IMG/VR virus record: IMGVR_UViG_3300009502_002390
Coordinates: 1 to 24,950 of that record
Direction: 5' to 3' (one strand)
Length of the DNA: 24,950 bases
Source of the DNA: a virus
The position numbers were made by a program, and so were the translations under genes. The number at the start of each line of letters is the position of its first letter. Position 1 is the first letter of the stretch. A model generated the notes under the pieces. It had not been told where the DNA came from, ran no database searches, and saw only the letters and a list, made by a program, of their open reading frames with translations. Below, piece after piece: positions 3,296 through 24,950 of the stretch.

Positions 3296-6200
3296 TTAAT
3301 GAAGTCTGTTAAATAATGAATTTACTGCTTTACCTGCATTTTTTGTATTATTATCGTATGCAGTTTCTAATGCCTTTTTTTCACTATCTAAAACACCTTT
3401 TTGATATGATTCTTGTCTATTAGCCATATCAGAAGGTAATTTATAGAGACCTTTATTACTAAAAGTTGAATTAGCATAGTAATTAAACGATACTGCATTT
3501 TGAAGTGCATCAATAGGTCCTTTCAACGATTGACCACCAATTATTTTCATTGATAACGTTACTTTACATATCATGGGTTGCATACCAAAACCCTCCGGAT
3601 TGGTATCCCATGTTGTTTCAGAATAATCAAAGTTTATACTTTCAATAATTACTTTGGTATAAAAGAAATCACCAATTCTTAAAATGCAAATAGGTTGACG
3701 ACCAAAAACAGAATTTTTTGCTCTTAATATTCCATTAATATCTGGTTCTGAATTATATCTTTTTGCAGCACCCTGTCTTGTACACTGTTGTAAAAATGTT
3801 AATCTTCTATGAAAGTCTTCTGGTGTTTGTGTATTAAAAACAGGATAATAATAATTTCCTATCGATGATTGAAAACCATGTAGAATTGCTGTATCGCTAT
3901 CTTTTCTTTCATTCATTACAGAATAATCAGGAATATTTTTTAATGTATTAATTTGTGTTTGTATTTTTTCTTTTTGAGCAATTAAAGAATTTAATATAGT
4001 TTGTTCATCAACAGTTATTTTATTGCTTTTTGCAGTAACCTGAGTACTATTTCTTACAAATTTAATTGTTGCACTTCTTTCTTCTTTTACTTCTCTATAA
4101 CCAATTGCAGCAGATGTTGCTCCAACAATACCACTATTTGAACTACCAACAGAATTAGTTATAATTGTTATTCCTAATTGTTCGGGTGTTTTTCCATATA
4201 ATGTTTGTATTTTCTTTTCAATAAATATTTTAACAGCATTTGCTCTACGTAAACTAAGGGCAAGATTATAGTCATTACCCTTTTTAATATCATTTGGGTT
4301 ATATTCAGTATATAATTTTGATGCACTTCCTGTTATTTCAATATTGTAATATTTTCTAGCATCTTCATTATCAAGCATAGTTTTTAATGCAGAATTTAAT
4401 TCTGATTCATTACCAAATTGATCTGTCACACCTGTAGAAGTATATTGTGAAAAAGTAGGGTCTACAAAAAATGAATAATATAATACTCCTTCATTAAGAT
4501 ATGGACTAAGACCATCAATATAATAAATTGATTTATTTAAACCAAAATGACCAGAATCAAAACTAGTTGATATTACATTATCTAAAATTTCATATCCACC
4601 CGCATACATTTTATCAATAATAGTTGAGTCATTATCGTTTTTTGGAATATCATTAGGAAAATAAATTGAAAATGGTTTAGGAACATTAACTTCTGGTTCT
4701 GATATATGTGGGTCTTTATTAATTAAATTAATTTGATCTTGAATTTGTTTTTCTTTTAGTTCTAAATTAGGTACATTATCTGGAATTGTTATGTCGTTTC
4801 CGCCAAAACTAAAAAATTCGGCAATTTCTTTTTGTGTTGAATAATTTCTTAACTGTTGAGGATGATCTATTAATAATATAAAATTTAATACGGCTGTTCT
4901 TTCAGAATTTTGATAATTGTACATTGGTTCATTTCTACCAACCATTACTGTTGGTTCATACTTAGCATTTGCAACTTCCTGTACCTCTAATCCATAAGGC
5001 GGAAACCACATAATTCGACCATTAAACGGACCGACCTCACTTGCAGATATTTGTGATCCATATTCATCATCTATAATACCAACACCTTCTTTACTTATAA
5101 CTCTTACTGCAAGATTTTCAATACTAAGCATTAAATTCTTATTATTAATTTTTCCTTCATTATCTAATGACGGATGTATTTTAGGTAATACTGAATTATA
5201 TATAACTGAATTTTCATTTCCGCCATATACTTTATTACCGTCAAATCTAATTGCTTTTGCAAATCTATCATATTGATCTAAAACAGTATGTTGACGAATA
5301 CCCGTTTTTCCTGCAAATGCACTTAATGCTGTTGTTGGTGCTTTCCACATTGCAGAGCCATTAAAACCAACAATTTCACCACCATTGGTGAATGCTTTTC
5401 TTGTAATATCACCAATTCTTCCTTGTGTTGAATTAATTAAATTTCTGGTATATTCTAATAAACCACTTTTTATATTAAATTTAGATTGAACATCTTGAGT
5501 ATTACCTAAATTTATTCTAACCTCTTCTTCTGATTGTCCTTGTAATTGTGATAAATATTGATCTGTTTGTACATTAGTACCATCTCTACCCCAAATAAGT
5601 TTATTGGTTATGATATCATTTTTAAATTCAGTTTTATCATTAATCCAACTATTGGGAATATTATCATTTAATGTTTCTCTATTAACTAAGTTGCTAACTG
5701 CTGATCCAAAATTTTCTTTAACAAAATCAATGTTTGGTGCATATTCTGAATTAATTTTATATTCATTATTCATAGAATTAATCATACTAAGATTTGCATC
5801 TTTAATTGCTACGTCAGTATTGGGTAATATTGAAATTAAATTATATGGATTGAAATTATTATTATTAAAATCAAAATATTTTTTATTTATATTGCCTAAT
5901 AAACTACTTCTATTAATTAAAGGTACATTAACCTGTGTGGCATAATTATTAAATGTTTTATCAATATTAGTTGATGATTGATAATATAAATTTCTATTAA
6001 TATTGGTATATAATTGTCTTAACTGACCTTCCCCAGTATTTTTTATATAATCAGAATTAGTTGGATTATTATTAAATGGATTATCTGCATTTGAATACCA
6101 ATAAACAGAAGAATCTAAAAAATTCTGAAATGATGTATTAGTTGATTTACTAGTAATTCTATATTTTAATCTGGTTGTAAATAAATTACTATTTTTATCA

Positions 6201-6541
6201 AATAAATTAGAAGTATTAAATATTGGAAAATTTTCTCGTTCAATACTTGACATTGAATTTAAAGCAAATTGTTTTCCTAACATAGCTAAACCAATTGTTG
6301 CCAATGGTGTTCTATTGGTAACTAATCTTCCATAAACAGTATTTTCAAGATTATATGATTTAAACGGAGTTAATCCTGCAATAATTGTATTAATTGCATT
6401 AACAGTTTTGTTAATAGCAGATTTATTAGTACTAGGATATTCAACATCAGGTGTATACAAATTTCGAGTAATTAAATTTTCTCTATAGTTTGCAGTATTT
6501 ATTAATAATCTTGAAGTAGGTGTTTCGTTGTCAGAAGCCAT
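3296..6541 (-). CDS. Large baseplate/tail structural protein with an OmpA-like segment
   Basis: 1081 aa. The N-terminal half (about 1-490) is Asn/Ser/Tyr-rich, with no recognised domain. About 500-565 has GRIMWFPPYGLEV, then GRNEPMYNYQNSER followed by strands and DHP, like the beta-rich cores of baseplate tube-initiator/LysM-type tail proteins. About 685-830 looks like an OmpA C-terminal domain: a YYSFFVDPTF strand, an ITGSAS strand, the hallmark helix LALSLRRANAVKIFIEKK, and a final ERSATIKFVRN strand. About 945-1010 returns to a tail-like fold (IGDFFYTKVIIESINFDY, MICKVTLSMKIIGG), so the OmpA-like part may be inserted in the baseplate domain. It precedes the gp53-like gene and follows the 475-nt gap after the tape measure. 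A baseplate or central-hub role is inferred from position and from these segments. Confidence 0.65.
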   Translation of the reverse strand: MASDNETPTSRLLINTANYRENLITRNLYTPDVEYPSTNKSAINKTVNAINTIIAGLTPFKSYNLENTVYGRLVTNRTPLATIGLAMLGKQFALNSMSSIERENFPIFNTSNLFDKNSNLFTTRLKYRITSKSTNTSFQNFLDSSVYWYSNADNPFNNNPTNSDYIKNTGEGQLRQLYTNINRNLYYQSSTNIDKTFNNYATQVNVPLINRSSLLGNINKKYFDFNNNNFNPYNLISILPNTDVAIKDANLSMINSMNNEYKINSEYAPNIDFVKENFGSAVSNLVNRETLNDNIPNSWINDKTEFKNDIITNKLIWGRDGTNVQTDQYLSQLQGQSEEEVRINLGNTQDVQSKFNIKSGLLEYTRNLINSTQGRIGDITRKAFTNGGEIVGFNGSAMWKAPTTALSAFAGKTGIRQHTVLDQYDRFAKAIRFDGNKVYGGNENSVIYNSVLPKIHPSLDNEGKINNKNLMLSIENLAVRVISKEGVGIIDDEYGSQISASEVGPFNGRIMWFPPYGLEVQEVANAKYEPTVMVGRNEPMYNYQNSERTAVLNFILLIDHPQQLRNYSTQKEIAEFFSFGGNDITIPDNVPNLELKEKQIQDQINLINKDPHISEPEVNVPKPFSIYFPNDIPKNDNDSTIIDKMYAGGYEILDNVISTSFDSGHFGLNKSIYYIDGLSPYLNEGVLYYSFFVDPTFSQYTSTGVTDQFGNESELNSALKTMLDNEDARKYYNIEITGSASKLYTEYNPNDIKKGNDYNLALSLRRANAVKIFIEKKIQTLYGKTPEQLGITIITNSVGSSNSGIVGATSAAIGYREVKEERSATIKFVRNSTQVTAKSNKITVDEQTILNSLIAQKEKIQTQINTLKNIPDYSVMNERKDSDTAILHGFQSSIGNYYYPVFNTQTPEDFHRRLTFLQQCTRQGAAKRYNSEPDINGILRAKNSVFGRQPICILRIGDFFYTKVIIESINFDYSETTWDTNPEGFGMQPMICKVTLSMKIIGGQSLKGPIDALQNAVSFNYYANSTFSNKGLYKLPSDMANRQESYQKGVLDSEKKALETAYDNNTKNAGKAVNSLFNRLH

Positions 6542-7016
6542 TAATATTGATTTTTTAATAAATACTTGTAAAATTAATTTATATTAAGTATTTTTACCTT
6601 GGGAAATTATTGACTTAATCGAAGTATTAGAATAATTTATTTTTACCAAAACAATATTGGATTTTTAAAATAAAAAATTTAAAAATAAGACCTAAAGTGA
6701 AATTTTACTTGAAAATTTTGAAAAACTTTGCAAAATCCTTAAAATATAATTAACTTTAGAAAATATAATATAATTTTGAAAAAATTAGATATAGCTTTTC
6801 TTTTATTTTTAGTTTTGATTAAATTCGAAGAAGTCAATCATAAACTTTATAAATTTGTTATTTGGTTTGTAAAACTAAATAAAGAAGTGAGTGAGATTAT
6901 GATTGTCTGAAAGACATCCGCTTGAATAAGCGAAACTTCGTCAAAGTTATAAAAAATTTCTGAGATAATCAAGTGTTTTTAAATAAAACATTATTATTTA
7001 ATATAAATTTAACAAA
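6542..7016. other. 475-nt non-coding gap between tape measure and baseplate gene
   Basis: No credible coding frame was seen on either strand. The half next to the 1081-aa gene is A/T-only sequence with an 8-bp inverted repeat (6560-6567 / 6586-6593) that would lie in that gene's leader. The half next to the tape measure holds a cluster of hairpins (6858-6970) richer in G and C. On the plus strand three TAnnTTTG boxes occur (6771-6778, 6810-6817, 6850-6857), but none has a TTG at the right distance, so they are weak promoter candidates. This is the only gap above 300 nt in the window. Confidence 0.6.
6858..6970. ncRNA. Candidate structured RNA with cloverleaf-like fold
   Basis: Read by eye, five stems can be drawn. 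An 11-bp hairpin pairs 6858-6868 with 6872-6882. A closing stem GATTAT (6895-6900) pairs with ATAATC (6965-6970). Inside it are three nearly contiguous hairpins: 6904-6907/6913-6916 (TGTC/GACA, extendable by GA/TC around one bulged base), 6919-6923/6928-6932 (CGCTT/AAGCG) and 6934-6938/6944-6948 (AACTT/AAGTT). Strand is unresolved. A G-T pair in the first hairpin (6864-6876) is a G-U wobble on the plus strand but a C-A mismatch on the minus strand, mildly favouring plus; minus would make it a leader of the baseplate gene. It is not a tRNA: there is no 7-nt anticodon loop or T-loop. Confidence 0.35.
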
Positions 7017-9554
7017 TTAACCAACTTCTTGACCATTTCTGGCTTCAACTTGTTTTCTAATTGCTACTTTTGAACTATATGTTTTTTCCATGAATTTATG
7101 ACCATCAATATTTAGTGTGATATCACTTACAATGGCAACTTTATTGTTTGCAAATTCAACTTTTAATGGACTTTTTAGTAAATTAGCAAGATCAGCTAAC
7201 ATGCCACCACCTTTAGTATTAACTTTAGATATGGATTCAACAGCATTTTGAATGGCAACCCAATCATCTTTACTTCCTGACATTGCTAAATTTATTTGTT
7301 TAAATGAATCACCAACTTTTGAAATAGCATCTGCATTTTTTGATATTATTTTCATTGTTGCAGCAAATGGTATAAGACCAAGTGCCCCAACAGAAAATCC
7401 AATCATAGATGCTGATATTAATGCAATTCCTTTACCCACATCAAGTAAATCTTTACCAGCACCTTTACTTGATTCAACAAGTTTTGCTAAACCCATTACC
7501 ATTAAACCAATTCCAGAAGCAGCAATACCAATACCTGCACCTATACCAAGTACAGCTAAACTAAATAAACCTAATTCTGGTGCAGCAGCACCAGCAGCAA
7601 TTGCTATTCCCATAATAGCAGCAGCAAACAAAGCACCAACACCAACAACAATACTAATTGAATTAACAATTCTTTCTAATGTTTTTGCTTGTTCTGGTGT
7701 TAATTTACTCATTGAATCTGCTAATTTACTTATACCAGCAGCAGCAAGTCCAATTCCTGCACCTGCACCAAGTGCAGCAGCACCAATTCCTGCACCAACA
7801 CCAAGTGCTCTTGCTCCTTGTGCTTTCATTAATTCAGGTGCACCCTTTCTAACCATTCCTGTTTTAGTAGTCCACCATTTTCCTGTAGATGTACCACCCC
7901 CACCTACTCCACTACCTACTCCACCGCCAATGCCACCACCAATACCAGTACCACGTGCTAATCTGGTTGCAGCACTATTTAGTAACATTCCTACATATTT
8001 CCATGCAACAGCACCACCAGCTAAAAGTCCAGCAGCAACAACAATTCCACCCCAACCAGTGTCAGAAAGTTTAGTAAGCATTTGTACTACAGGTCTGAAT
8101 GCATTTAAAACACCATTAACTGTTCTCAATATTGGTAATAATGTTGCTTTTAATATTTCAACTGTTGACTTTAATACTTCATTAAATGTTAATGCTTGTT
8201 GAGCACGTTCTTTTAATGATGATTGTTCTTTTGCAAATGATTTTGCTTGTGATTCTGTTAATGTACTAATATCAACCATTTTACCAGCAAGTTCTGCTTC
8301 AAATTTACCTGATCTAGCATTAAAAATAGCAGCACCTTGAACCAATTCTTTTTCTCTACTGGTTAAACCCATTCCTGCCATTTGTTTTGACATTAAATCC
8401 ATTTCAGCACGTCTTTGTGCTATTTGAGTTATTTCTTCATTACTCATTCCTAATGCTTTGGCAGCATATTCAAGTCTTTGTCTATCAGCAGGACTAATAA
8501 ATTTCTCAAATGTACCATCACTTTTTTTTCTAAAAGTAATAAGTCCTCTAGTCATTTCACTTATTTTCTTAACCCATTTATCAGGTTCATTACGAGAAGT
8601 ATAAAAGGCATCAAACATATCAATTTTAGCAAATTCACCCCCCATTACCTGTAATTTGGCAACAGCATCAATAGCACCTTCTAATGTTTTAGTTGTATCG
8701 GCAGCATTTAATGCCTGATTCATATTAACCTTTAATAATTCAGAATTCATTGCCATTTCAGCAATACCTTTACTACCTGATCTAAAGCTATATGTATTAA
8801 GTCTTTTAAAGTTATCATTTAAGTTTTTTAATACTTTGGTTGTATTAACACCCATTCTTTCCGAAGTATCAACAATTCCTTGAACATAGTCAATGGTTTT
8901 TCTAGCATCAAATCCCATTAATTCAAATTGTGCACCTAATTTAGCTGCTTGTTCAACGCCAAGACCAGTACCTTTTCCTACAGCAAGAATATCTTCAGCC
9001 ATTTGAGAGGATAATACACGTGCTCTGCCTGTTTCATCTGCATATCCTTCCATTATTGATCTAATATCAGTAAGATTAGCACCTAATAAAGCAGCAAAAC
9101 TAGCACTTTTTTCAAATGATGTTCTAATCATTTCTGCTTTAGTTCCCGACATTCCTAAATTAAGAATGGTTGTTCTAATAACTTTATCTGATTCTTGTAA
9201 ATATTTCCAACCTAATTTTATTTGATTTCCTAATTCCTTGACTAAATCAATTCCTCTTTGTCTACTTTTATTGGATTTATCAATTTGAGCAGTATGTTCT
9301 TTTTCAATTTTTAATGAATTACTTTGTTCTGCTTCTAATTTTGTTAAATATTTAATTTCATCTTGAGATAATTCAGAAAATCTTCTTTTTAATTCATTAA
9401 TATGTATTTGTCTTTCAGTATTAATTTCAGATTGTCTTGCTCTTTCACCTTCTAAATCATTAATATTTTTACTTAATTGTAATTGTATTTTAAGATAATT
9501 ATTTAAATCGTCATATTCTTTTGCAAGAGTAGAAATTTTCTTTTTGGCTGCCAT
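7017..9554 (-). CDS. Tail tape measure protein
   Basis: 845 aa. Residues 1 to about 115 form a charged coiled coil (KLEAEQSNSLKIEKEH and neighbours). About 120-480 is a long helical region. From about 500 there are Gly/Ala-rich hydrophobic helices (GGIVVAAGLLAGGAVAW near 500-520; GAGIGAAALGAGAGIGLAAAG near 580-605; three more to about 730), interrupted by a Gly-rich linker (about 535-555). That is the usual layout of a tape measure, whose hydrophobic part may enter the host membrane during DNA ejection. At about 1.5 angstrom per residue it would set a tail near 125 nm (inference; T4 gp29 is 590 aa). It sits downstream of the frameshifted chaperone-like pair, the standard position. The ATG at 9554 begins MAAKKK with only an AT-rich leader. 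Confidence 0.85.
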   Translation of the reverse strand: MAAKKKISTLAKEYDDLNNYLKIQLQLSKNINDLEGERARQSEINTERQIHINELKRRFSELSQDEIKYLTKLEAEQSNSLKIEKEHTAQIDKSNKSRQRGIDLVKELGNQIKLGWKYLQESDKVIRTTILNLGMSGTKAEMIRTSFEKSASFAALLGANLTDIRSIMEGYADETGRARVLSSQMAEDILAVGKGTGLGVEQAAKLGAQFELMGFDARKTIDYVQGIVDTSERMGVNTTKVLKNLNDNFKRLNTYSFRSGSKGIAEMAMNSELLKVNMNQALNAADTTKTLEGAIDAVAKLQVMGGEFAKIDMFDAFYTSRNEPDKWVKKISEMTRGLITFRKKSDGTFEKFISPADRQRLEYAAKALGMSNEEITQIAQRRAEMDLMSKQMAGMGLTSREKELVQGAAIFNARSGKFEAELAGKMVDISTLTESQAKSFAKEQSSLKERAQQALTFNEVLKSTVEILKATLLPILRTVNGVLNAFRPVVQMLTKLSDTGWGGIVVAAGLLAGGAVAWKYVGMLLNSAATRLARGTGIGGGIGGGVGSGVGGGGTSTGKWWTTKTGMVRKGAPELMKAQGARALGVGAGIGAAALGAGAGIGLAAAGISKLADSMSKLTPEQAKTLERIVNSISIVVGVGALFAAAIMGIAIAAGAAAPELGLFSLAVLGIGAGIGIAASGIGLMVMGLAKLVESSKGAGKDLLDVGKGIALISASMIGFSVGALGLIPFAATMKIISKNADAISKVGDSFKQINLAMSGSKDDWVAIQNAVESISKVNTKGGGMLADLANLLKSPLKVEFANNKVAIVSDITLNIDGHKFMEKTYSSKVAIRKQVEARNGQEVG

Positions 9555-10806: not shown

Positions 10807-11628
10807 ATGAGTGAAGAAAAAGATTTTAAAGAAATAATTTCGACAAATAATGATGCACAATTTTCAAAAATAAAAAAAGAAATAAATAAATTTATACCGA
10901 ATGATTTAAAACTAGAAGCAAAAAATGAGAGTCAAATAAAATTAATTAATTCAATTAAAAATAATGAAATTACAATCTGTGCCGGTCCTGCTGGATGTGG
11001 AAAAACTTTTATCTCAGTAGCCTATGCACTTTCCTTATTAAGAAAATCAAATAATAAATATAAAAAAATATATTTAGTTAAATCTGTAACCCCATTAAAG
11101 GGCGAAGACATCGGTTATCTTAAAGGAAATGTTGACGAAAAAATATTACCATTTTTCTTCAGTTATTTTGTTAATATAGAAAAAATAATTTTAGATACAT
11201 CACTTAAAGGATTACTTGATAAAGAAATAATTAAACCATTTCCTCTCACATACATGCGTGGTGTTACTCTTGATGACTGTATTATTATAATTGATGAAGC
11301 ACAGAATATATCATTAGATAATTCTCGTACATTATTAACACGTATTGGAGAAAATTCTAAAGTTATTTTGCTTGGAGATACAAATCAAATTGATTTAAAA
11401 AACAAAGAAGAAAGTTCATTAAAAACTTTAATTAACATGTTCGAAGATACTGATAATATTGGAATTATCGAAATGAATGAAGATGATAAAAACATCAGAA
11501 ATCCAATAATTACAGTAATTGAGGCTAAATTTAAAGAATATCTTGCCATGTCGGGCAGTACAAAAACAAACATTAAAAATAATAAAAAACAATTATTGGT
11601 TGAAAATGAGATATTGGACGGAAAATGA
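10807..11628 (+). CDS. phoH: PhoH-like P-loop ATPase
   Basis: 273 aa. After about 40 helical residues comes the PhoH ATPase core: Q43 region (ESQIKLINSI), Walker A GPAGCGKT at 60-67, VKSVTPLKGEDIGYLKG (about 91-107, the PhoH signature R/KSVxxxGExxGxLPG-like segment), Walker B IIIIDEAQN (159-167) and ILLGDTNQID (187-196) as sensor motif. All expected ATPase residues are present. PhoH-like proteins are common in T4-like and marine phages; an RNA/helicase-type role is usually proposed and not proven. The last about 25 residues (from MSGSTK) are polar and overlap the start of homing endonuclease 1 by 23 nt, so the C-terminus may have been reshaped by that insertion. First gene of the plus-strand operon. 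Confidence 0.88.
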   Translation: MSEEKDFKEIISTNNDAQFSKIKKEINKFIPNDLKLEAKNESQIKLINSIKNNEITICAGPAGCGKTFISVAYALSLLRKSNNKYKKIYLVKSVTPLKGEDIGYLKGNVDEKILPFFFSYFVNIEKIILDTSLKGLLDKEIIKPFPLTYMRGVTLDDCIIIIDEAQNISLDNSRTLLTRIGENSKVILLGDTNQIDLKNKEESSLKTLINMFEDTDNIGIIEMNEDDKNIRNPIITVIEAKFKEYLAMSGSTKTNIKNNKKQLLVENEILDGK

Positions 11629-12592
11629 AATAAATTATTTGGTTAATAATTACGGATTAATTAGTAATAAAGAACTTGGAATAATATTAAATAGATCAGC
11701 AAAATCTGTCTATGATAAATACCTTTTAATTAATTTCAAAGGAAGAGCAATTAATGAAAAAAATAAACTAAACTTTAATACACTTAAACAAATTGCTTTA
11801 CAATATAAAACAAGAGGTGAATTTCAACAAAAAAATTCAAGTGCTTATACTACTTCATTTCGTTATAATATATTAGATGAAATATGTATTCATATGATAC
11901 CACAAGGTTATAGTACACCACAACTTTTATTATACGAAATATTAAAAATATTAATTCCAAATGATAATATAACATATAATGACAGAAAAATAATCAAGCC
12001 ATATGAAATTGATATCTATTATAATGACTATTCACTAGGTTTCGAATATAATGGTAAAAAATGGCACACCAATAATATCAAAGACGAAATTAAAATTAAT
12101 TTATGTAATAAAAATAATATTAATTTAATTATTATAAACGAAAATAATAGAAATTATGTTTTAGATATTAAAAATCAGTTAATTAATAATTTAAATAAGA
12201 TAAATAATATTACTGGATTAAATATTAATGAATCTGAAATATTAGATATTGACGAAACAAATTTATATGAACTAATAAAATTCAATATTATTAATATCAA
12301 TTATATTGATAATACTATTAATAAATATACAAATGCACATGATTTTAAATTGAATGAACCTAAATTATATCATTTTTTATCTAAAAATAAATTATTAAAA
12401 AATTACACATCTAATTTGAAAAAAAATAGAATTGATTGGAATGAAGATAAAATAATTAAAATTGTTAGTCAATATATATACTATAATGACTTTCAGAAAA
12501 ATAATAATGGATGTTATTTGTTTGTCTGTAGACATAACTTAAAACACTTATTAGATAATTTAATAAAAAGAAAAAATAACAAAAAACAATGA
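11606..12592 (+). CDS. Homing endonuclease 1, EDxHD/Vsr-like, with SANT-like HTH and repeat modules
   Basis: 328 aa from ATG 11606; upstream in-frame codons run inside PhoH and are not used. Residues 1-45 (RYWTENEINYLVNNYG, then RSAKSVYDKYLLINF) form a SANT/Myb-like HTH. About 58-97 is a DNA-binding module (LKQIALQYKTRGEFQQ, then AYTTSF, ILDEICIHM) common in phage homing enzymes. The nuclease core follows: E111 in QLLLYEILK, D136 in KPYEIDIYY, and GFEYNGKKWH with H154, the EDxHD set of the Vsr/I-Bth0305I type. About 235-325 holds two more copies of the 45-50-aa Y-x2-Y-x-DF-...-L-x2-L module. It starts inside PhoH and its TGA overlaps the next ATG (ATGA), so it is embedded in the operon without breaking it. 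A free-standing mobile gene. Confidence 0.82.
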   Translation: MRYWTENEINYLVNNYGLISNKELGIILNRSAKSVYDKYLLINFKGRAINEKNKLNFNTLKQIALQYKTRGEFQQKNSSAYTTSFRYNILDEICIHMIPQGYSTPQLLLYEILKILIPNDNITYNDRKIIKPYEIDIYYNDYSLGFEYNGKKWHTNNIKDEIKINLCNKNNINLIIINENNRNYVLDIKNQLINNLNKINNITGLNINESEILDIDETNLYELIKFNIININYIDNTINKYTNAHDFKLNEPKLYHFLSKNKLLKNYTSNLKKNRIDWNEDKIIKIVSQYIYYNDFQKNNNGCYLFVCRHNLKHLLDNLIKRKNNKKQ

Positions 12593-12869: not shown

Positions 12870-14198
12870 ATGGGATATCATATAAAATATATTTGGAAAG
12901 ATGAGGAAATTGAATATTTAATTGAAAATTTTGAAAATTCATATAATTCAGATTTATCTATTATATTAAATAAATCTGAATTTGTTATCATGAGTAAAGC
13001 ACATGAATTAAATTTAAAAAAGAATAAATTACATCTAACACAAATAGGTATAAAAAGCAGAAAAAATTTTAATAGAAATCTAACAAACGAAGATTTGAAA
13101 AAAATTGCATTAAAATATAAAACAAGATATGAATTTCAAAAAAATGATAGTAGAGCATATGCAATTTGTTGTAAACAAAAAATATTAGATTCTGTTTGCA
13201 TGCATATGTTTACTAAAAAATATAGTACGCCACAATTATTATTGTTTGAAATGTTAAAAATAATATTTTTAAATAATGACATTAAATATAATGATCGAAG
13301 TATTATTAAGCCATATGAAATCGATATTTTTATAAAAGATTTCAATTTGGGTTTTGAATATAATGGAAAATATTGGCATAAAAATAATTATTCTGACGAT
13401 ATTAAAATTAAATTATGTAATGAAAATAATATTAATTTAATTATTATAAAAGAATATAGTAAAAATTATTGTATTGATATTAAAAATCAATTAATAGATA
13501 ACTTAAAATTAATTAATGATGTCAGTAATTTACAAATTAATTCTGATGATATTTTATATATAGATAATAATATTCTATATCAAAAAATTAAAAATAATAT
13601 AATTAATGTTGAAGATATTAAAAATATAATAGGAAAATATATATATTTTTCTGATTTTAGAAAAAATGAATATATTTTATATATAAAACTTGCTAATAGT
13701 AAACAACTAGATTATTATACGAGTAATTTAATTAGAAATAAAATAAATTGGAATATTGATAGTATTATTAAAGTAATAAATAAGTATAAAAATTATTCTG
13801 ATTTTATAAATGAAAACAATTCCTGTTACAAATATATAAAGGCGCATAAATTAGAATATTTATGTGATAATTTAGTTAAAAACAAAAATTATTGGAATAT
13901 TGATAGTATTACAAATATAATTAAACAATATAATAATTATTCTGATTTTATAAATGAAAATAATAGTTGTTATAAATATATAAAAAAACATAAATTAGAA
14001 TATTTATGTGATAATCTTAATAAAACAACTAAAATTAAATGGAGTTTTGATATGATTAAAGAAATAATATACGAAAATAATATTAAATCAATATCTGAAT
14101 TTAATAAAAAATACGGAGGTGGATGTAAATTCATTTATAAAAATAACTTAACAAATAAAATTAATATGATATTTCAAAAAGACAATTACTATGAATAA
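12870..14198 (+). CDS. Homing endonuclease 2, EDxHD/Vsr-like, with four C-terminal repeats
   Basis: 442 aa, paralogue of homing endonuclease 1 with the same order of parts. Residues 5-50 are the SANT-like HTH (YIWKDEEIEYLIENF, then HELNLKK). About 73-113 is the LKKIALKYKTRYEFQ-type module. The nuclease core has E127 (QLLLFEMLK), D152 (KPYEIDIFI) and GFEYNGKYWH with H170. From about 240 there are four 47-49-aa repeats, two of them almost identical. The start is 2 nt after the 92-aa gene, and its last 8 nt overlap the start of the HAD-like gene. It is even more A/T-biased than its neighbours (long AAT/ATT codon runs), fitting a mobile gene. Confidence 0.82.
   Translation: MGYHIKYIWKDEEIEYLIENFENSYNSDLSIILNKSEFVIMSKAHELNLKKNKLHLTQIGIKSRKNFNRNLTNEDLKKIALKYKTRYEFQKNDSRAYAICCKQKILDSVCMHMFTKKYSTPQLLLFEMLKIIFLNNDIKYNDRSIIKPYEIDIFIKDFNLGFEYNGKYWHKNNYSDDIKIKLCNENNINLIIIKEYSKNYCIDIKNQLIDNLKLINDVSNLQINSDDILYIDNNILYQKIKNNIINVEDIKNIIGKYIYFSDFRKNEYILYIKLANSKQLDYYTSNLIRNKINWNIDSIIKVINKYKNYSDFINENNSCYKYIKAHKLEYLCDNLVKNKNYWNIDSITNIIKQYNNYSDFINENNSCYKYIKKHKLEYLCDNLNKTTKIKWSFDMIKEIIYENNIKSISEFNKKYGGGCKFIYKNNLTNKINMIFQKDNYYE
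13749..14036 (+). repeat. Tandem 144-bp repeat inside homing endonuclease 2
   Basis: Two head-to-tail units of 144 bp (13749-13892 and 13893-14036), each beginning TGGAATATTGATAGTATT and encoding WNIDSI, then NYSDFINENNSCYKYIK, then HKLEYLCDNL. They are nearly identical in DNA and protein. A diverged third unit starts at 14040 and a fourth precedes at about 13600. This indicates recent in-frame duplication of a DNA-binding module. Confidence 0.85.
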
Positions 14199-20129: not shown

Positions 20130-21017
20130 ATGGCATACGAAAAACCCATTCTACAAACATCAATTAATCCGTATAAACCGCAAGGGAGTACTTATGAAAT
20201 AACCAGAACGATTTATTATGCTGAAGTAATTTCAATAGAAGATGAAACCGATGGTGGAAGAATAAAAGCAAGAATTCAAGGTTTTGATAATAATACTTTA
20301 AATGATAATTTACCTTGGTGTTATCCTTTATTGCCTAAATTTTTTCATTTATATCCACAAGTTGGCGAAATAGTAAGAATTTTCATAGAAAATATTAAAT
20401 ATCCAGAACGAAGCAGATTTTGGATGGGAAGTGTAATATCACAGCCACAAAAGATAGGCTTTGATACTATTTATACGGCACTTTCAACCACAAATTTAGG
20501 ACTTACTGTACCAGAACCAGCACCTAGTACCTATCCAGATGCAAGTGGCGTATTTCCTCTTAAAACAGACGTAGCGATAATAGGCAAAGTTAATACCGAT
20601 GTTATATTAAGAATTAATGAAGTACATATTCGTGCAGGTAAACATGAAAATGATAATATTTTAAAATTAAACACAAAAAATCCTGCAGAAATATCATTGG
20701 TTTTTGAAAACGGTGATAATGGATATCAAAGCAGTACAGTTATAACCAGCGATAAAATAGCATTAATTTCACACAATGGAAATCCACAGTTTAAAGCAGC
20801 AAGAGTAGAAGCAAAAGACAGAGAAAGAATATTCGATGAAGGACACCCAATGGTAAGAGGTGATGTTGTTAAGGAAATATTGGAAAAATTTAGAACAGCA
20901 ATAATTGCACATATTCATGGCTATTCAAATCTACCTGCAGATAAAGATGCTATCATAAGTGACTTGGAAAAAATTAATTTAGACGGTATGTTGCAGAAAA
21001 ATATTGTAATAAATTAA
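20130..21017 (+). CDS. 5: Baseplate hub/spike protein, T4 gp5-like OB-fold
   Basis: 295 aa. Residues about 28-112 form the gp5/VgrG OB-fold: YYAEVISIEDETDGGRIKARIQGFD, then LPWCYPLLPKFFHLYPQVGEIVRIFI and RSRFWMGSVISQPQ. The 'D..GRIKARI', 'PWCYPLLP' and 'P.VGE.V.V' pattern is the family signature. The middle (DVAIIGKVNTDVILRINEVHIRAGKH) and ISLVFENGD look beta-rich. GHPMVRGDVVKEILEKFRTAIIAHIHGY (about 240-270) is a conserved end also seen in gp5-like proteins. The lysozyme domain of T4 gp5 is absent, and there is no long beta-helix, so the spike tip must come from another protein. The start follows the palindromic site by 5 nt. Confidence 0.8.
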   Translation: MAYEKPILQTSINPYKPQGSTYEITRTIYYAEVISIEDETDGGRIKARIQGFDNNTLNDNLPWCYPLLPKFFHLYPQVGEIVRIFIENIKYPERSRFWMGSVISQPQKIGFDTIYTALSTTNLGLTVPEPAPSTYPDASGVFPLKTDVAIIGKVNTDVILRINEVHIRAGKHENDNILKLNTKNPAEISLVFENGDNGYQSSTVITSDKIALISHNGNPQFKAARVEAKDRERIFDEGHPMVRGDVVKEILEKFRTAIIAHIHGYSNLPADKDAIISDLEKINLDGMLQKNIVIN

Positions 21018-21050: not shown

Positions 21051-21827
21051 ATGTTCACAATACCATCAGAAATTTTTACTGCGTTTAATAATGTTACGTT
21101 TTATGATGAACCGCATAAATATTACATTGATAATAAAGAATTAATTTCTGTTACTACCTTAATTCACAAATATCAACCAGAATTCAATGGAGAATATTGG
21201 TCTAATATAAAAGGGAAACAATTTAATATAAAACCAAATGAAGTATTAAGGGCATGGAATTTTATTAATAAAAAGGGAACAATCAAAGGTTCTGCCATTC
21301 ATGATTATGCTGAAAATCTTTTTCAAAATAAAAAATACGAATATCCAAAAGAATTAATATTAAATGAATTTGGTTTTGATCCTGTATTAAAAGAATATGA
21401 GATAACAAAAAAACATGTTGATAATTTTTATAATGATGTAAAAGGTAAACTAATTCCAATACGTGCAGAATATGTTGTTTATGATAAAGAATATCAAATT
21501 GGTGGTATGTTAGATATGCTATTCTATAATGTAAAAAGAAAAGAATTTCAGGTATGGGATTATAAAACAAACAAAGATTTAACATTAGATTGCAAGGAAA
21601 GACATTTATTGAATGATTTATTTACTCTAGAAGATTGTGACATGGAAATATATTCAATACAATTGGAAATGTATAAGCAAATTATTGAAAGAAATATTCC
21701 AATTAAACTAGGACAATCTTATTTAGTCTGGTTTTCGCATAGAAATGATAATTATAAAGTAATTCCAACCAGAAATAGAGAGTACTATGCAAAAATAATT
21801 ATGGAAAACAGATTAAATGAATTATAA
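21051..21827 (+). CDS. PD-(D/E)XK nuclease, RecB/Cas4-type
   Basis: 258 aa. The nuclease motifs are all visible in order: H84 in KGSAIHDYAENLF, E140 in IRAEYVVYD, D155 in QIGGMLDMLFYN, D170-x-K172 in FQVWDYKTNKDL, and Q204/Y208 in YSIQLEMYKQII. This is the RecB-family set (H, GxxD, DxK, QxxxY) found in Cas4, AddB and phage exonucleases; there are no Cys residues of a Cas4 iron-sulfur cluster. Likely a DNA exonuclease for recombination, replication or host DNA degradation. It has its own host-type promoter. Its stop codon overlaps by 6 bp the end of a broken homing endonuclease gene on the opposite strand, leaving no room for a terminator between them. Confidence 0.82.
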   Translation: MFTIPSEIFTAFNNVTFYDEPHKYYIDNKELISVTTLIHKYQPEFNGEYWSNIKGKQFNIKPNEVLRAWNFINKKGTIKGSAIHDYAENLFQNKKYEYPKELILNEFGFDPVLKEYEITKKHVDNFYNDVKGKLIPIRAEYVVYDKEYQIGGMLDMLFYNVKRKEFQVWDYKTNKDLTLDCKERHLLNDLFTLEDCDMEIYSIQLEMYKQIIERNIPIKLGQSYLVWFSHRNDNYKVIPTRNREYYAKIIMENRLNEL

Positions 21828-23412
21828 AATTAATTCATATTTATTTGCACCGCAATCATAGATTTTATAAATACTTTTAATTTTTTCGTATCTAATTTTA
21901 TTTTTTGGTGAACGAAACATTCTATTTATTTCATTAGTTTCAAAATAAAAATAATTAGGTTTTATCTTTTTTATTAAATTAAAACCTAATTTTATATATT
22001 GATCTTCATCGTCATATCTTCTATTAGAATAATAAATTATTGATTTAGGATTATAATTATCAATAAAATAACTAATTATGTTTTCTTCCGCCTTATTAAT
22101 TTTATAATTAAGTTTATTCGCAAATCTAATTATTTTATAGTTGTCGGCATTTTTATTAATTAATGACATTATTGATATCAATTCCTTGTTATAATATAAT
22201 CCGAAATTTAATGTTGAAGTAGTACAACCAAGTAAATGATTTGTTTTAAAAAAATTATTAATAAGGTCAATATCAATTATTTTTTTAATATTACAATCAC
22301 TTGCATTTATCTCTATTTCTAAAATATCTAATTTAGATTTAATTAGATTTAAAATGCAATCATATTTATTTATAATTTCATCTTCAAATATGTGAATTAA
22401 TTTAACGTCATTTTCTTTAGATAATATGGTTTTATTTAAATGATAATGTTTGTTTTTAAATTTTTCTGAATGCCAAAATAAACCGTCAATTTCAATACCT
22501 AATTTAAAGTCAGGTAAATAAATATCAATTTCTTTTCCATGTAAAATTGTTCGATTATTTAAAATATAGTTGATATTATGTTTTTTTAACATTAATATAA
22601 TATTATCTAAAATAGACGAATATGATTTTAATTTATTACATTTAGTACATATTTTATATTTATTAACAATTCTCGAAATTAAAAGTTTATTACTAATTGA
22701 AAAATCATCGTTACAAGTTTTACAATGAAAATGATATAAATTGGAATTATAATCATGTTTAATAAAAATAATATTATCATCTGTAATTTTATTAAGCATT
22801 CTTTTTATATTTGTTGCAGTGCCGTTTTCAGATGATTTTATTCTGTTTTCAATTACATGTGGAATATCGTTAATGTTAGAAACACCATATTTTTTTATTA
22901 TTGCTTTTTGACAATTATCTTTTATTTCTGTTGATTTCATTGGACTATCAACACCGTATGTCTTAATCAAACTGTTTTTAAATTTCTTTTTTATTTCTTC
23001 ATTTTTCATTGGACTATCGACACCAAACTTATTAATATATGATTTTCTTTTCTTTAATAATATTTACTTGATTATGACTATCAACACCATATTTCTTTCG
23101 ATTAAATAATATAACTTGGCTTTTATGCTCTTCGGAACTATTTAAACAATCAATTGAACAATATTTATTATGCCCTTTCGCTAATGTTTCAACAAATTTT
23201 AGATATTTTCCACAGTTTGGACATATAGGAACATTTTGTAGATCATTTATAAACAACCAAATCTTTTCTTTAAATGGTATTTCTTTTCTAATTGAATTAT
23301 TTATTATTTGTAAATATAATTCAATTTGATTTTTAGATAACCATTTTTCAGTAGTTTTACAACCGCATTTATTATCAATAAAGAAATATATTTTTGCTTC
23401 TTCTTTAGTCAT
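21822..23412 (-). pseudogene. Homing endonuclease 3, EDxHD-type, split by a frameshift
   Basis: Two frames make up one protein. 23412-23032 encodes 126 aa with a zinc ribbon (CPNCGKYLKF, then YCSIDC) and ends KKYGVDSHNQVNIIKEKKIIY-stop. The remainder continues in the next frame, where reading just before the ATG at 23009 gives KSYINKFGVDSPMK. Removing one A from GAAAATC near 23050 restores a single frame of about 530 aa. The second part (23009-21822, 395 aa) has KEIDIYLPDFKLGIEIDGLFWHS and LIHIFEDE (nuclease core), then a C-terminal GNAT-like domain common in these enzymes (NHLLGCTTSTLNFGLYYNKELISIMSLI and IIYYSNRRYDDEDQYIKLGF). The helix that normally holds the catalytic Glu reads SSILDNIILML, so that Glu seems missing. 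Probably decaying, or a homopolymer sequencing error. Confidence 0.8.
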
Positions 23413-23484: not shown

Positions 23485-23976
23485 TTACATGTTAAGAATA
23501 CATCTGTAAGGTTGTATTTCTAAAACTATGTTTGTTAAATCATCAGTTCCGTAATCATTCTCGCCAAAATCAATTGATGTAATCATGCATTGCTCCAAAA
23601 ACCATTTTTCGACTTCGATACCTGCAGGGTCTAATGCTTTTAAAAGAATATTTTTCGCATAACCAGCCTTATATCCCATTCTACCTGTCAATGATTCTGC
23701 ATGTAAACGAACCCACTCCATAAGTTGCTGTGACGAAGATGGACCGATTGGATCAAGGAATGTTATACTCATTGTATCCCAAAAATATCTACCCGAAACA
23801 TAGTTTTTTTCGTTCATAAACGGAATTTCAACCGAATTTATTTTCATCGAAGGTCTTTTAAATTTTTGTACCTTCCAAACTTCTATACCCAAATCATCCG
23901 CAAATTCTGCGAAAAATCTATTTACCCTCTTAGGTTCATATTCAAAGGGAATTCCCCTTACCATTTCATTTGCCAT
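23485..23976 (-). CDS. 19: Tail tube protein, T4 gp19-like
   Basis: 163 aa, the same length as T4 gp19. YEPKRVNRFFAEFADDLGIEVWKVQKFKRPSM (about 13-44) is the usual N-terminal 'P.R.NRF...F....GI..W.V....RP' pattern of the gp19 family. Then come a beta strand IPFMNEKNYVSGRYFWDTMSITFLDPIGPSSSQQLMEWVR (about 51-90), the helix with LTGRMGYKAGY, and a C-terminal WFLEQCMITSIDFGENDYGTDDLTNIVLEIQPYRC. It forms the inner tube through which DNA leaves. It is isolated from the other tail genes, flanked by two related homing endonucleases, and no host-type promoter was found (AATAAATAC lies just before its ATG). Confidence 0.83.
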   Translation of the reverse strand: MANEMVRGIPFEYEPKRVNRFFAEFADDLGIEVWKVQKFKRPSMKINSVEIPFMNEKNYVSGRYFWDTMSITFLDPIGPSSSQQLMEWVRLHAESLTGRMGYKAGYAKNILLKALDPAGIEVEKWFLEQCMITSIDFGENDYGTDDLTNIVLEIQPYRCILNM

Positions 23977-24070: not shown

Positions 24071-24950
24071 ATGGAAGAAAATAAAAAAGAATTAATAGAA
24101 TATTTTATTAAAGATAATCAGTCAGGATATAAAACCAGAGAAAAATATGTGAAAAAACATATAATTGGTTTGGCTGGTAAAATAAATGAATACAATAATA
24201 AATTTTTTGATATTGATTTTCCGTTTACACAAAAACTTTATAATTATCTTTATGATATTACTGAAATTCCTAAGTGTGATAATTGTGGTAAATCAATTAA
24301 ATGGAGAGGAGTTTTCACAGAAGGTTATTTAAAAAATTGTTCAAAAGAATGTAAAAATCGTAGTAAATTAAGAGTTGAAAGAACTAAAATAACAAATATT
24401 GAAAAATATGGAGTAGACTCGGTTTTAAAATATGATAAATTTAAAGCAAAAAGATGGGAAACAATGAATAAAAAAATTGTTGAAAAATTTAAAAAACATG
24501 GATATAATATAATTGAAACAAATAAAACCACACTAAAAATAATACATCCTGATGGTCATATTTTTGAAGGAAATAGAAAGCTATTTTCAAATAGACTTAA
24601 TGACGGATTTGAAATATCAACCAAATTATTGCCATTAAAATCAATACGTTCCACATATGAATTAGAAATACAATTTTTTTTAAATTCGTTAAATATTAAA
24701 TATGTTATAGGAAGCAGAAAAATATTAAACAGAAAAGAAATTGACATTTATATTGAACCAAATAAATTGGGCGTTGAATTTGACGGATTATATTGGCATT
24801 CAAATTTATTTGTAACAAATAATTATCATCTAAATAAAACAGAAGAATGTGAAAAACTAGGCATTGAACTTATTCACATATTTGAAGACGAATGGATTAA
24901 TAAGAAAGAGATCATTAAATCAATGATTAAAATAAAATTAGGTATATATG
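24071..24950 (+). CDS. Homing endonuclease 4, EDxHD-type with zinc ribbon (partial, cut by window end)
   Basis: 293 codons visible, open to the end of the window. A zinc ribbon is formed by C69 and C72 (CDNCGK) with C90 and C94 (NCSKEC). KYGVDSVLK (about 112-120) is the YGVDS module shared with endonuclease 3. The nuclease core is intact so far: Glu in STYELEIQFFL (about 194-204), D225 in RKEIDIYI, VEFDGLYWHS with H243, and LIHIFEDEW (267-275). By comparison with endonuclease 3, about 200 more residues with the GNAT-like C-terminal domain should follow. The start is preceded by TATCTTTA (24050-24057), a near -7 box, and TATAAATA (24018-24025). It is divergent from the tail tube gene. Confidence 0.8.
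   Translation, partial: MEENKKELIEYFIKDNQSGYKTREKYVKKHIIGLAGKINEYNNKFFDIDFPFTQKLYNYLYDITEIPKCDNCGKSIKWRGVFTEGYLKNCSKECKNRSKLRVERTKITNIEKYGVDSVLKYDKFKAKRWETMNKKIVEKFKKHGYNIIETNKTTLKIIHPDGHIFEGNRKLFSNRLNDGFEISTKLLPLKSIRSTYELEIQFFLNSLNIKYVIGSRKILNRKEIDIYIEPNKLGVEFDGLYWHSNLFVTNNYHLNKTEECEKLGIELIHIFEDEWINKKEIIKSMIKIKLGIY

Follow-up and report, generated by a model that had tools for sequence, protein, structure and literature searches.

What occupies the only long non-coding gap in a 24,950-base record of an uncultivated virus (the window below, that is, the whole stretch of DNA analysed)? According to the ORF list, the gap covers 475 nt (6542-7016) between two minus-strand ORFs, and its description as the only long one, given in the original prediction, holds for the window. 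On one side lies the presumed tape-measure gene (7017-9554, minus strand, 845 aa), and on the other the presumed baseplate gene (3296-6541, minus strand, 1081 aa). Pfam gave no match for either ORF, nor did PHROG at E<=0.001, and the sole hit of the 1081-aa ORF (E=0.06) is meaningless. The two names are used because of the position beside a baseplate-hub-like protein and because the original prediction had chosen them. That prediction placed a cloverleaf-like structured RNA at 6858-6970 of the gap.

Relatives were sought with both flanking proteins, singly and then as alignments, and the same gene pair was found in about 35 distinct uncultivated IMG/VR contigs, many of them 140-365 kb long. 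The gap of these relatives is mostly non-coding and about 375-475 nt, with inserted ORFs in several of them, and the gaps align with clear conserved blocks even though the flanking proteins are only 45-55% identical. A DNA pattern scan added one member (L012), and its other matches were known loci or unrelated places. In remoter tape-measure/baseplate pairs (about 30% identity), the element was not detectable. Relatives in cultured phages or bacterial genomes were also sought and none was found: tblastn with the tail proteins matched none of 50,697 phage records, and there was no match in 84,980 bacterial and archaeal genomes and no related provirus or host contig.

The folded strand

The minus strand was modelled first (model R1), since both genes beside the gap are on that strand and CTTG-N20-TAACTTTG had the look of a promoter for it. 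This model also gave strong covariation. However, covariation alone carries no strand information, so that the strand was decided by wobbles, energies, loops and the consensus fold. Read as minus-strand RNA, P4 and P5 contain 63 A.C against 6 G.U, and this excess of A.C means that the wobbles belong to the plus strand; the plus-strand model has 91 G.U against 14 A.C. The plus strand folds better in all 32 of 32 members (mean -37.7 kcal/mol, against -27.3 kcal/mol for the minus strand). GNA loops cap P4 in 25 and P5 in 26 of the 32 on this strand, and P6 ends in GNA or GNNA. RNAalifold applied to the minus-strand alignment returned zero pairs, hence no consensus fold. Model R1 was rejected on these four grounds. 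The folded strand is the plus strand, as the original prediction had folded it.

The same evidence bears on the idea that the element is a 3′ UTR of the minus-strand tape-measure mRNA, or a bidirectional structure at its end. The element does lie directly after the tape-measure stop codon, on the transcript of that gene, and the minus strand can be drawn with hairpins. However, a minus strand with no consensus fold, in which A.C mismatches dominate, is not what this idea predicts, and long insertions between the tape-measure gene and the element leave the element intact. We consider this explanation very improbable.

Conserved helices and their covariation

Covariance model R2 matches positions 6739-6952 of the window (plus strand) with 133.9 bits. 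Together with the fold energy and the pair counts given below, it places the structured non-coding RNA at 6763-6953 (plus strand, ends approximate). The element is about 190-210 nt long, is conserved in 33 distinct sequences and comprises five helices. From 5′ to 3′ on the plus strand, it consists of P6, a AUAGUUAUCC-like stretch, P5, and then H, which closes a junction with P4 and P1. Hairpin P6 (6768-6790) is of the AUUUU-GAA-AAAAU type with a GNA or GNNA loop. The sequence changes between relatives, but almost all of the 32 have a hairpin at this place (combined p 5e-17, uncorrected for relatedness). The register of P6 varies, which makes it the weakest part of the model, with 63% of its cells paired in alignment A8. 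A conserved single-stranded block follows at 6791-6800 (consensus AUAGUUAUCC, alignment A7). In hairpin P5 (6816-6840), capped by a GAA triloop, all 9 of 9 modelled pairs have changed on both sides and 95% are canonical. Helix H, formed by 6849-6857 and 6942-6950, emerged de novo from RNAalifold on the plus-strand alignment without being sought. Its outer pair is GC in 27 sequences, AU in 5 and GU in 1, and another of its pairs is UA in 27, CG in 3 and UG in 3. This long-range, covarying helix replaced an earlier candidate, P5a (a CAAA/UUUG hairpin). The 3′ strand of H (6942-6950) reads TAACTTTG on the minus strand.

Inside the junction, P4 is an 11-bp hairpin with a GUA triloop (6858-6882), in which 6 of 8 modelled pairs have changed on both sides (91% canonical), and P1 pairs 6884-6888 with 6935-6939, where 5 of 5 have done so (93% canonical). 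P1 carries a variable insert, made up in the window of hairpins P3 (UGUCU-GAA-AGACA, 6904-6916), which stands outside the covariation model, and P2 (CGCUU-GAAU-AAGCG, 6919-6932), which is not generally conserved. Judged by eye, the insert is similar in about half of the relatives, and a P3-type hairpin is seen in roughly half of them in alignment A7. A pairing of GUCAAGUUUUU at the 5′ side with AAAAACUUGUC at the 3′ side was discarded, since by eye it fails in L014, L107, L113 and L028. The baseplate-side third of the gap has no consensus fold.

This anatomy amends the original prediction in several places. Strong plus-strand hairpins do occur at 6858-6970, and its 11-bp hairpin is P4. A closing helix exists as well, but the conserved one is H instead of the 6-bp GATTAT/ATAATC stem that had been proposed (about 6894-6899/6965-6970). 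The supposed third hairpin, AACTTCGTCAAAGTT, is composed of the 3′ strands of P1 and H, and two further conserved hairpins, P6 and P5, lie 5′ of the interval. The interval as first drawn does fold, but its excess over shuffled sequence is modest (z -2.05, 9 of 200 shuffles as good), with z about -2 on either strand. With the comparative boundaries, 6762-6957, the comparison with shuffles that had been proposed as a check gives a clear excess on the plus strand (z -3.87, 0 of 200 shuffles as stable), against z -2.61 and 5 of 200 for the minus strand.

The covarying pairs looked for in homologous gaps, the other proposed check, are present across the 33 sequences. In alignment A8, 90.2% of paired cells are canonical and 144 cells are double changes, against a mean of 42 in shuffles (0 of 500 reach 144). 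Sliding the structure gives 27-35 such cells and a covariation score no higher than 0.111, compared with 0.414 in register. RNAalifold on the plus-strand alignment gives -5.19 kcal/mol and 29 pairs, 21 of which have changed on both sides. A tree-aware permutation test, purpose-written and modelled on R-scape, ranked pairs of P5 and P4 first in structure-free alignments (E 0.02-0.2), and pairs of P1 and P5 first in the model alignment (E below 0.01), which leans towards the structure and in which two diagonal neighbours of P1 pairs also score. R2 also matches members outside its training set, L026 with 70 bits and L012 with 127 bits. A chance structure in AT-rich DNA might be suspected from the z of about -2 of the interval first drawn, but it is refuted by the covariation in 33 sequences, the 500 shuffles, the slid controls and these outside matches, and its probability is negligible. 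A small conserved plus-strand protein was likewise rejected: the homologous frame is open in few members and interrupted in most of the 33, with open runs of mean 36.7 against 32.0 in shuffled sequence. From these sequence comparisons, we hold with high confidence that the element represents a structured-RNA family.

Promoter-like motifs and invading genes

The RNA occurs in one copy at a fixed place between the presumed tape-measure and baseplate genes. R2 finds one strong match per record, always on the expected strand, in 15 or 16 of 22 records (16 if G022, whose match is cut by the contig end, is counted), and wherever a record includes the tape-measure/baseplate gap, the match falls in it. 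L027 and L124 have no R2 match, and their gaps contain other sequence. The RNA is lost or replaced in L124 (10460-11335), L027 (6341-6965) and L029 (6122-6998), by TTTTCCTAATTAC tandem repeats, another small ORF and a repeat-bearing ORF, respectively, and all three retain the AAGTATTTAT motif before the baseplate-like gene.

Several relatives have received genes beside the RNA. On the strand of the RNA, an HNH-like ORF parts it from the tape-measure gene in L003 (7462-8178), L014 (5834-6529), L019 (5678-6460) and L106 (10540-11244). At 231-260 aa, these ORFs show a weak HNH match at best, and Pfam found no IscB or TnpB domain in them. They are related and share an insertion site, a hotspot for presumed homing endonucleases. 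In L026, four ORFs on the other strand separate the RNA from the tape-measure-like gene. In L023, two ORFs (4613-6854) have entered between the promoter of the RNA and the baseplate-like gene: one encodes 526 aa including an N6/N4 DNA methylase domain, and the other encodes 222 aa and has no family match. The RNA is intact in all six despite insertions on either side, which is the pattern expected of a stand-alone gene. As a separate observation, a 77-aa MerR-type helix-turn-helix ORF follows closely behind the RNA, on its strand, in L030 (6327-6560) and recalls the N-terminus of an IS607-type recombinase.

An mRNA leader, as offered in the original prediction, would require a gene to lead. 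A riboswitch-like or processing leader of a plus-strand gene could be imagined from L003, L014, L019 and L106, where the HNH-type ORF follows on the same strand, but most members have nothing on the plus strand before the opposite-strand tape-measure gene, and the HNH ORFs look like later arrivals. The RNA is read away from the baseplate-like gene and in opposition to the tape-measure-like gene, and thus is not the leader of either. The chance that it is a leader at all is very slight, even below that of the 3′ UTR.

A promoter for the RNA itself can be proposed. Bacteroidota housekeeping promoters consist of TTG and TAnnTTTG (PMC6847099), and the sigma-ABfr criterion applied here was TTG (-33) and TAnnTTTG (-7), about 19-21 nt apart. 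In the window, the putative element P+ on the plus strand has TTG at 6728-6730, a 20-nt spacer and TAACTTTA at 6751-6758, with a predicted start near 6763. Its box is TAACTTTA and not TAACTTTG, the last letter of the -7 consensus TAnnTTTG being replaced by A. TAnnTTTG occurs just 5′ of P6 on the plus strand in 15 of 29 relatives, against 2.8 expected and a maximum of 7 in 200 shuffles, and at the same place on the other strand in 0 of 29. A TTG at 19-20 nt accompanies the box in the window and in L022, L107, L103, L017, L113 and L023. Only about half to two thirds of members have a P+ that can be recognised, and L026, L019 and L106 are among the others. Upstream of ORFs in these genomes, TTG/TAnnTTTG is found 26 times in the sense and 5 times in the antisense direction. 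The promoter type suggests that the carrier phages probably infect Bacteroidota.

A second promoter-like element, P- (TTG, 20 nt, TAACTTTG; 6942-6972, minus strand), faces P+ and overlaps helix H and with it the 3′ end of the RNA. Its TTG lies exactly 20 nt upstream of the box in 20 of 32 relatives, the next best offset being found in 7 of 32. The box coincides with the 3′ strand of H, and TTCG variants of it come with compensating changes in H, so that part of the conservation of P- belongs to the RNA. P- is at least as conserved as P+, and the minus strand may therefore be transcribed too. One rival reading is an antisense unit, in which P- makes a long leader of the baseplate gene and the structured plus-strand RNA is its antisense regulator, or the reverse, comparable to the antisense pairs of plasmid copy-number control or of the phage c4 type. 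In its favour, the structured region is flanked by promoter-like elements that face each other, the transcripts would be fully complementary, and P- and the baseplate-like gene stand on opposite sides of the RNA. However, this gene has its own phage-type promoter: the start-proximal motif AAGTATTTAT (6558-6567, minus strand) lies 16 nt before its ATG at 6541. Moreover, the element is parted from the baseplate-like gene by the methyltransferase cassette in L023, and from the tape-measure-like gene by the four ORFs in L026. Antisense pairing also needs neither a plus-strand G.U bias nor GNA loops. Overall, we judge the antisense unit unlikely, though it is the strongest competitor of a stand-alone gene.

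The motif GTATTTAT occurs 75 times in the 45 nt upstream of 243 other ORFs, where 1.2 occurrences were expected, and is presumably a phage-specific promoter, perhaps of a late class. Sites of GTATTTAT(A) also lie upstream of 7017-9554, 20130-21017 and 23485-23976. At the site before the tape-measure gene, GTATTTAT comes straight after a hairpin that resembles a terminator (GACCGAG...CTCGGTCTTTTGTATTTAT), so that terminator and next promoter are fused.

The fold could also belong to DNA. Mini-hairpins of the C(GNA)G form are exceptionally stable in DNA, and if the plus strand folded as single-stranded DNA for replication priming, packaging or a hairpin promoter, the covariation, the tolerance of G.T and the mostly C-G-closed GNA triloops would look identical. 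In this sense the element may still be a packaging or recognition structure, as had been suggested. On the other side, the loops include GNNA and GAAA, which are ordinary for RNA, and an RNA promoter, the putative P+, is present. The GC-skew minimum is not at the element in two near-complete-sized contigs, which is not decisive for an origin; a replication origin at the element thus gained no support from skew in these two genomes. In one of the two, G011, gene orientation and skew slope switch within about 10 kb of the element. A DNA structure seems doubtful, the more so when set beside the antisense unit.

A separate RNA family and its possible role

Known families offer no name for the RNA. 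Rfam 15 gave 0 gathering-score matches in the window and seven related loci, permissive Rfam scans of the gap, L014 and L021 gave sub-threshold unrelated hits or none, and ARAGORN reported no tRNA or tmRNA. The earlier statement that no known tRNA, riboswitch or ribozyme is recognisable thus agrees with both searches. In a limited search of the literature, no RNA of this description came up. The RNA is a separate family among the structured phage non-coding RNAs without known function. The nearest in kind are GOLLD and ROOL, structured phage or prophage RNAs of 580-800 nt whose function is unresolved (PMC12286853, PMC2864571). Like them, the present RNA is phage-encoded, structured, non-coding and stand-alone. 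Unlike them, it is about 200 nt long, lies between tail genes and not near tRNAs, has a different fold and no Rfam match, and its hosts are probably Bacteroidota. Non-coding RNAs have also been reported for jumbo phage phiKZ (cited in the review PMC13282480). They are likewise non-coding RNAs of a very large phage, but the present phages are unrelated to it by the tail proteins tested (no tblastn match in the 50,697 phage records). The manA and wcaG motifs of T4-like cyanophages are, like this RNA, structured RNAs in large myophage-type genomes, but they are 5′ UTR elements of metabolic genes (PMC2864571), whereas the present RNA is on the strand opposite to both neighbours. If P- is active, opposed transcripts and richness in hairpins would recall the c4-type antisense RNA of P1-like phages (RF01695), which the present RNA does not match in Rfam and with which it would share an antisense role only under the rival hypothesis above. 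Finally, a same-strand HNH-type ORF adjoins the RNA in four relatives, as in HEARO and OMEGA RNAs, but 29 of 33 members have no such ORF, no nuclease domain of the IscB, IsrB or TnpB type was found, and there is no Rfam match. A cis-acting leader or riboswitch is also at odds with the lack of a same-strand downstream gene in most members.

On balance, we think it probable that 6763-6953 (plus strand) is a stand-alone structured non-coding RNA gene, or part of one, with a host-type promoter and an action in trans. In this gene, P+ just upstream would direct transcription by the host RNA polymerase, while the flanking tail genes would use the phage's own GTATTTAT promoter. The action in trans is suggested by the anatomy and by the fact that no neighbour can be the mRNA of this RNA. 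The stems vary freely while the shape and the GNA or GNNA loops are kept, which points to a protein partner: the short variable hairpins with these caps may form a scaffold that a protein recognises through shape and loop, and the RNA would then hardly be a guide pairing with one fixed target. Transcription from the convergent P- could yield an antisense transcript that limits the RNA.

A phage regulatory RNA, one of the possibilities raised at the outset, is possible. Its most specific form can be offered tentatively, as less likely than not: an undescribed class of phage regulatory or scaffold RNA that is made from a host-type promoter within the tail-gene block of large Bacteroidota phages, has its own convergent antisense promoter, and works in trans by way of a protein, of the phage or of the host, that recognises GNA-capped hairpins. 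If this is true, it may serve such ends as host takeover, anti-defence or virion assembly. The RNA has been held in place in about 35 divergent genomes despite the drift of its neighbours to 45-50% protein identity and the arrival of invading genes on either side, and so it must serve some need of the phage. Many metagenomes contain very large phages with Bacteroidota-type promoters, but to our knowledge their RNAs are almost unknown. A ready covariance model is now available for this family, and the two motifs, GTATTTAT for late-type genes and TTG-N20-TAnnTTTG, provide a first transcription map of the phage group.

Some further features of the window may be noted. Four successive glycosyltransferase-like genes (21-2905) adjoin the tail genes, and a separate TTG-N20-TAnnTTTG promoter belongs to the one that is transcribed first (2210-2905). 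The 25 kb also hold four ORFs resembling homing or HNH endonucleases (phrog_3339/559), at 11519-12592, 12870-14198, 21822-23009 and 24071-24949. The best matches of the ORF at 21822-23009 are in the huge uncultured phages LR756504 and LR756500.
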